Below, piece by piece: positions 11,063 to 11,262 of a stretch of DNA of 64,000 nt. The translations under genes and the position numbers were made by a program. Under the pieces are notes generated by a model. The model was not told where the DNA came from, made no database searches, and was given only the letters and a program-made list of their open reading frames with translations. Origin of the DNA: an uncultured Clostridia bacterium. Its GTDB lineage: Bacteria > Bacillota > Clostridia > TANB77 > CAG-508. The stretch covers positions 1 to 64,000 of the forward strand of contig CALXPN010000001.1 in assembly GCA_944390285.1 (NCBI GenBank), in the 5' to 3' direction. Position 1 is the first letter of the stretch; each line of letters begins with the position of its first letter.

Positions 11063-11262
11063 AAAGTTCAAATACTATATAAAAAAATATTACAATATCT
11101 TAAAGAGTCAAGCTAGTTTTCATAGAAATTCTAAAGTGGCATTTATCAGCGCCCTCAGGAACAAGCCTGAGATTCCCTAATAAATGCCACTTAAAAATTT
11201 CTATATTCAAACTACTTTCCAAAACGATATTGTAATATTTTATTATATAGTATTTGAACTTT
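11063..11262 (+). repeat. 200-bp palindromic element, copy A
   Basis: The whole convergent gap between the pseudouridine synthase and clpX folds on itself. Outer arms 11063-11099 and 11226-11262 pair over 37 bp with one mismatch. A central 13-bp stem (11134-11146 with 11180-11192) encloses a 6-bp stem (11154-11159 with 11166-11171) and an AACAAG loop. Internal loops TCAGCGCC and ATTCCCT, and the side-arm segments AGTTTTCA and TTCAAACT, recur in copy B at 21904-22096. It starts five bases after the upstream stop codon. It could be a structured 3' RNA, a BOX/MITE-like repeat, or both. Confidence 0.8.

Follow-up and report, generated by a model that had tools for sequence, protein, structure and literature searches.

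A dispersed hairpin repeat of gut Clostridia with conserved loops, freely varying stems and frequent inversion in place

Between two genes of an uncultured Clostridia bacterium lies one copy of a previously unlisted family of hairpin-forming sequences, about 200 bp long, that are dispersed between the genes of gut Clostridia. The copy lies in the window, a 64,000-nucleotide stretch of contig CALXPN010000001.1. It probably belongs to a non-coding repeat of the REP/BIME or MITE kind, dispersed as a DNA hairpin in a single family of uncultured gut Clostridia, and whole copies would invert through template switching or cruciform processing. Two traits are unusual: the stems are free to vary at the DNA level around conserved loops, and copies are frequently inverted in place.

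The copy is flanked by convergent genes, an RluA-family pseudouridine synthase gene upstream (10132-11058, + strand; TAA stop at 11056-11058) and clpX (11271-12566, − strand). As the initial annotation had stated, the element starts five bases after the upstream stop codon, at 11063, and its right arm stops 8 nt short of the clpX end. The same annotation held that almost the whole intergenic sequence folds into one interrupted hairpin, and the calculated folds agree: all 200 nt form a single interrupted structure, with a folding energy of −77.1 kcal/mol for the + strand (z −14.8; the shuffles average −22.9) and −94.8 kcal/mol for the − strand (z −17.3); on either strand, none of the shuffles reached the native energy. 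The parts of this hairpin and the second copy in the window are listed in Table 1, the + orientation of the element being defined as the strand bearing CAGCGCC.

Table 1. Coordinates of the hairpin element, its parts (copy 1) and the second copy in the window
Feature	Position	Strand	Observation
Full hairpin element, copy 1	11063..11262	+	Fold z −14.8/−17.3; covariance model 165 bits
Left outer arm	11063..11099	+	37 nt; copy-specific sequence, complementarity to right arm kept
Lower internal loop, 5′ side: TTAAAGAGTC	11100..11109	+	Family form TTAAGGTC, adjoins paired AAG; conserved alignment columns
Stem AAG-C-TAGTTT	11110..11119	+	Pairs with 11209-11217 (pair table); TAG/CTA positions covary (TAG, AAG, TAA, TGG, TGA among copies)
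Middle internal loop, 5′ side: TCAT	11120..11123	+	3′ side 11203-11208
Stem AGAAATTCT	11124..11132	+	Pairs with 11194-11202; compensatory changes
Upper stem, 5′ side	11135..11149	+	Pairs with 11177-11191; most variable and most covarying stem, some pairs altered on both sides in 6-7 of 15 copies
Upper internal loop, 5′ side: TCAGCGCC	11146..11153	+	Nearly invariant
Apical hairpin CTCAGG-AACAAG-CCTGAG	11154..11171	+	Loop conserved in part only
Upper internal loop, 3′ side: ATTCCCT	11172..11178	+	Invariant in 15/15 copies of the genome
Lower internal loop, 3′ side: TCCAAAAC	11218..11225	+	Conserved alignment columns
Right outer arm	11226..11262	+	37 nt; 97% complementary to left arm
Second window copy	21904..22096	−	86% identical; 176 bits; own outer arms CCCAGTTACTATAAT...

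A DNA search of the genome located the sequence in 16 places, and the genome as a whole holds 15 full copies and two collapsed ones. When the 15 full copies were used to build a covariance model, it recovered all of them with scores of 151-176 bits. The collapsed copies (L050 and L080; one place, C5:25161, came from the DNA search and the other, C2:190084, from the model) have lost the apical part of the hairpin but kept the lower stem and lower loop. The second copy in the window has a patatin-like gene on one side and a DUF6583 gene on the other; the latter (22124-23665) encodes a 513-aa protein whose sole match is DUF6583 (PF20224). Including all arms, the unit measures about 190-290 bp. 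Among the 15 paralogues, 16 of the 36 modelled pairs show double Watson-Crick substitutions that keep the pairing, and the outer arms, more variable than the modelled stems, are nevertheless near-perfect complements within each copy over some 30-40 bp. The loops follow the opposite pattern. Two of the segments that the initial annotation had picked out as conserved and unpaired, CAGCGCC and ATTCCCT, are indeed nearly invariant over the 15 copies; the third, AACAAG, does form an unpaired apical loop, but its sequence is only partly conserved (ACAAG, ATAAA and others occur). The lower loop is likewise nearly invariant. Not named in that annotation were another unpaired pair that is conserved, TTAA(A)G(A)GTCAAG / CTTTCCAAAC, and a smaller middle loop. 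Elsewhere in the genus other apical forms, GGCACCCTTCC/GAACTCTTTCC and TGCGCCTCTTTC/GAACATCCCTCA, stand on the same lower stem.

The checks that the initial annotation had proposed included a covariance-model search and a comparison with Rfam. The former bears out a recurrent element, present not only in 15 full copies in this genome but also in related Clostridia: the family was found in 17 of the 53 genus genomes and, at E < 1e-6, in 35 of 191 genomes of the order, 34 of which belong to the same family and one to another, and positive genomes often hold many copies each. All of the genomes compared are metagenome assemblies. No relevant Rfam family matched the hairpin at the gathering score. 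A pattern search returned 104 matches, nearly all in uncultured Clostridia; of the few outside the Clostridia, those inspected (e.g. Selenomonas, Dechloromonas) have no arms and are probably chance matches. An origin from phages, plasmids or viruses was rejected, as the phage and plasmid collections held no match to the hairpin and two viral pattern hits were GC-rich and without a hairpin. No IS gene was present among the neighbours examined.

Covariation is usually taken as proof of a functional RNA, and here it alone would have suggested one; the initial annotation also leaned towards a discrete RNA. Selection on an RNA strand would be expected to leave G·U as the chief tolerated mismatch. 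However, among 156 isolated mismatches in the stems of 162 copies, each counted once per sequence context, only 24 are G·U and 38 are A·C, whereas the terminator-like controls taken from these loci (simple single-mismatch hairpins with a T-tract, rather than curated terminators) have 41 G·U and 18 A·C among 68 mismatches (p = 5e-11 for the G·U share). Because G·U is not favoured, unlike in the terminators, pairing appears to be kept at the DNA level, with Watson-Crick symmetry, as expected from template switching between the arms or from selection on folded DNA. Furthermore, copies are found in either orientation and orthologues are inverted in place, from which it follows that no transcript strand is kept. 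With genes called by a simple longest-ORF rule, the gaps holding copies across the family comprise 89 tandem, 33 convergent and 12 divergent cases; in tandem gaps the copy is nearer to the upstream gene end in 61 cases versus 27 (p 0.0004) and lies on the same strand in 56 versus 33 (p 0.02), a mild bias not expected of a strand-blind element. A structured non-coding RNA or mRNA 3′-end element, with pairing selected in the transcript, would accommodate this proximity to gene 3′ ends and the mild same-strand bias (8 versus 2 in this genome), together with the strong covariation, the conserved loops and a slight A·C excess on the + strand, which corresponds to G·U in the RNA of the − strand. It is nonetheless quite unlikely, given that neither strand shows the G·U preference of terminators, that both orientations are used and copies invert in place, and that no Rfam family corresponds to it; the leaning towards RNA is not supported. 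A bidirectional transcription terminator is a distinctly improbable alternative, suggested by the window copy itself, which fills a convergent gap where relatives carry ordinary terminator-like hairpins: at this locus G021, G061 and G001 have short gaps with such hairpins, and in G012 the matched genes are separated by only 16 bp with no copy of the hairpin. The family-wide mixture of gap contexts speaks against it, as do the conserved loops, a length exceeding that of any terminator and the absence of a regular T-tract at the ends. The arrangement typical of intrinsic terminators at gene ends, in which a T-tract follows a short GC-rich stem, was not found, in keeping with the earlier remark that the element does not match a simple terminator.

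Inversion in place is apparent from orthologous copies with the same flanks in four closely related genomes (G073, G074, G075 and G077), where orientation is often opposite. Between G075 and G077, 12 orthologues have the same orientation and 5 are flipped; the corresponding numbers are 6 and 7 for G074/G077, 5 and 6 for G074/G075, and 12 and 3 for G073 against the other three genomes. When these pairs were grouped into loci, a grouping of our own, about 24 loci resulted; about 12 of them show one flip or more, although the case of L366/L383/L418 is weak. At the L268 locus the flip is resolved at the base level. The inverted segments span about 160-310 bp, and the longest exact inverted repeats at the flips measure 12-42 bp; each locus has its own breakpoint repeats, so the loci share no recombination site. 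Within the window's own genus, five pairs of orthologues have the same orientation and one locus is apparently flipped, although only one of its flanks could be aligned. Orthologues in the same orientation are 96.8% identical over the central 180 bp, compared with 90.7-94.2% further out, a high identity to which recombination between related species may have contributed. That the inversions are artefacts of assembly might be suspected from the use of metagenome assemblies and the near-palindromic nature of the element. The final k-mers usual in assembly are longer than 12-42 bp, however, so that the exact inverted repeats fall below both k-mer and read length, and the flips recur across genomes with both flanks intact, making this explanation very unlikely.

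Template switching is known to homogenise the arms of inverted repeats and to invert the spacers between them (PMC8604942, PMC8794818). Under the favoured reading of a DNA-hairpin repeat, what is conserved would be the folded shape of the DNA together with the sequences of its unpaired loops, leaving the stem sequence free to change. Template switching during replication, or cruciform processing, between the arms could then produce both the perfect pairing of the stems and the inversion in place, while the loops would resist homogenisation between the arms. Because of this resistance the loops are probably bound by a protein, a putative factor that would act on the hairpin or on single-stranded DNA, and they may lead to a new hairpin-DNA-binding factor. 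A bolder extension, which we regard as speculative and rather doubtful, is that the repeat serves as the substrate of a machinery that reads folded DNA by its internal loops, both spreading it and actively turning it; integron attC sites, likewise recognised by shape, offer a model. If true, bacterial chromosomes would carry a population of DNA elements in which selection acts on shape rather than on sequence or strand. The repeats form a large natural family that combines strong covariation with frequent inversion and no G·U preference, which points to maintenance at the DNA level. They should caution RNA-discovery pipelines and offer a system in which hairpin template switching can be studied in bacteria.

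Copies are also present or absent at orthologous sites. The window locus is itself empty in G012, G021, G061 and G001, where the gaps are short or contain ordinary terminators. The counterpart in G019 of a G001 copy (L156) is empty, with both arms absent, as is the counterpart in G081 of the L268 copy (~290 bp with its outermost repeats), although an empty site could also represent loss rather than the state before insertion. Inspection by eye of the empty sites and the AT-rich flanks revealed no target-site duplication. Derivation of the arms from the target, by an inverted target duplication, was rejected at these two loci since neither empty site, in G019 or in G081, contains the arms, and since L200 and L268, two copies of one genome, have the same arm asymmetry. 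Insertion at the apex of older palindromes could be assessed at a single locus, which gave it no support, and pairs of hairpins are not the ends of a larger transposon, as ordinary chromosomal genes lie between them. At the site where G001 has the hairpin and G019 is empty, G016 (L296, C2, 1088-4165) carries two paralogous genes of ~500 aa. Other palindromic elements occupy the sites orthologous to L268 in G078 (L333) and G084 (L334), that of G078 having RAYT-REP-like ends (CAATTGGGGACGGGCTTATTTTGCACAA).

No transposition was observed in the genomes compared, and the copies may be moved in trans. One possibility, doubtful for the family as a whole, is a REPIN-like element moved as single-stranded DNA by RAYT (Y1/HUH) transposases, whose substrate would be the looped hairpin. 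Two copies in G017 are flanked by inverted repeats that also occur beside its RAYT gene (85-88% identity over 40-47 bp, 80-84% over 69-75 bp), and those in G070 are contained in elements whose ends are TTGTAATTTGTAGGG (GTAG-type). RAYT-type genes, here meaning frames of about 180-310 aa whose PF01797 match begins at profile position 3-7, a definition not based on phylogeny, are present in long form in 8/8 high-copy genomes; they occur in 7/17 positive versus 6/36 negative genomes of the genus (p 0.086) and, pooled, in 15/25 versus 6/36 (p 0.0008), the pooled genomes being non-independent and picked for high copy number. Against this, the genome of the window (98% complete) has no PF01797 gene, most copies, including that in the window, lack GTAG/CGTC tags, and the RAYT loci searched contain no core hairpin. 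RAYT transposases are thus a lead for some copies, with none in this genome. Also unlikely is a non-autonomous MITE mobilised by a classical transposase through terminal inverted repeats: G070, the one genome in which the ends are conserved, has about 41 of them and a complete element of 551 bp whose terminal repeats measure 14-16 bp, and similar outer repeats occur in G034 and G002, but the copies of the window's genome share no terminal sequence and differ in their arms, and neither a target duplication nor an autonomous element was found.

The hairpin repeats share features with several known systems. ERIC and BOX elements are intergenic imperfect palindromes of 100-200 bp; they are conserved in sequence, whereas the present family is conserved mainly in shape and loops. 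Like MITEs, the repeats are small, dispersed, non-coding and palindromic, with presence or absence at orthologous sites, but no conserved terminal repeat or target duplication was recognised in the window's genome, and their stems vary while the loops are kept. Invertons similarly reverse a short intergenic segment between inverted repeats, yet use a common recombination site, whereas the breakpoint repeats here are locus-specific. REP/BIME/REPIN sequences are also palindromic, many-copy and intergenic, mostly downstream of genes (PMC3733652, PMC3116915), and combine variable stems with a conserved unpaired segment, a tag in REPs and loops in the hairpin family; some hairpin copies in other genomes are bounded by GTAG- or GGAC/CGTC-like repeats. 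REPs are, however, 20-40 bp long with a GTAG or CGTC tag, in contrast to ~190-290 bp with three internal loops, and the window copy has no GTAG or CGTC/GGAC tag in a genome devoid of RAYT genes. In the flip-flop inversions of chloroplast hairpins (Kim and Lee 2005, as cited in PMC12928735) and in template-switch spacer inversions (PMC8604942), a segment likewise inverts between short inverted repeats able to form a hairpin; as given in these sources the segments are 2-50 bp, compared with ~160-310 bp, a whole repeat, in a bacterial chromosome here.

Further palindromic elements were noted in passing. The 551-bp element of G070 (L117; C2:149472-150022) has TTGTAATTTGTGGGG ends and contains two hairpins, one of type 3 and another that is long and imperfect, and many of the ~41 ends of this type are situated at contig ends. 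In the window, two more hairpin-forming inverted repeats, at 57844-57924 and 55630-55685, are unrelated to the hairpin family.
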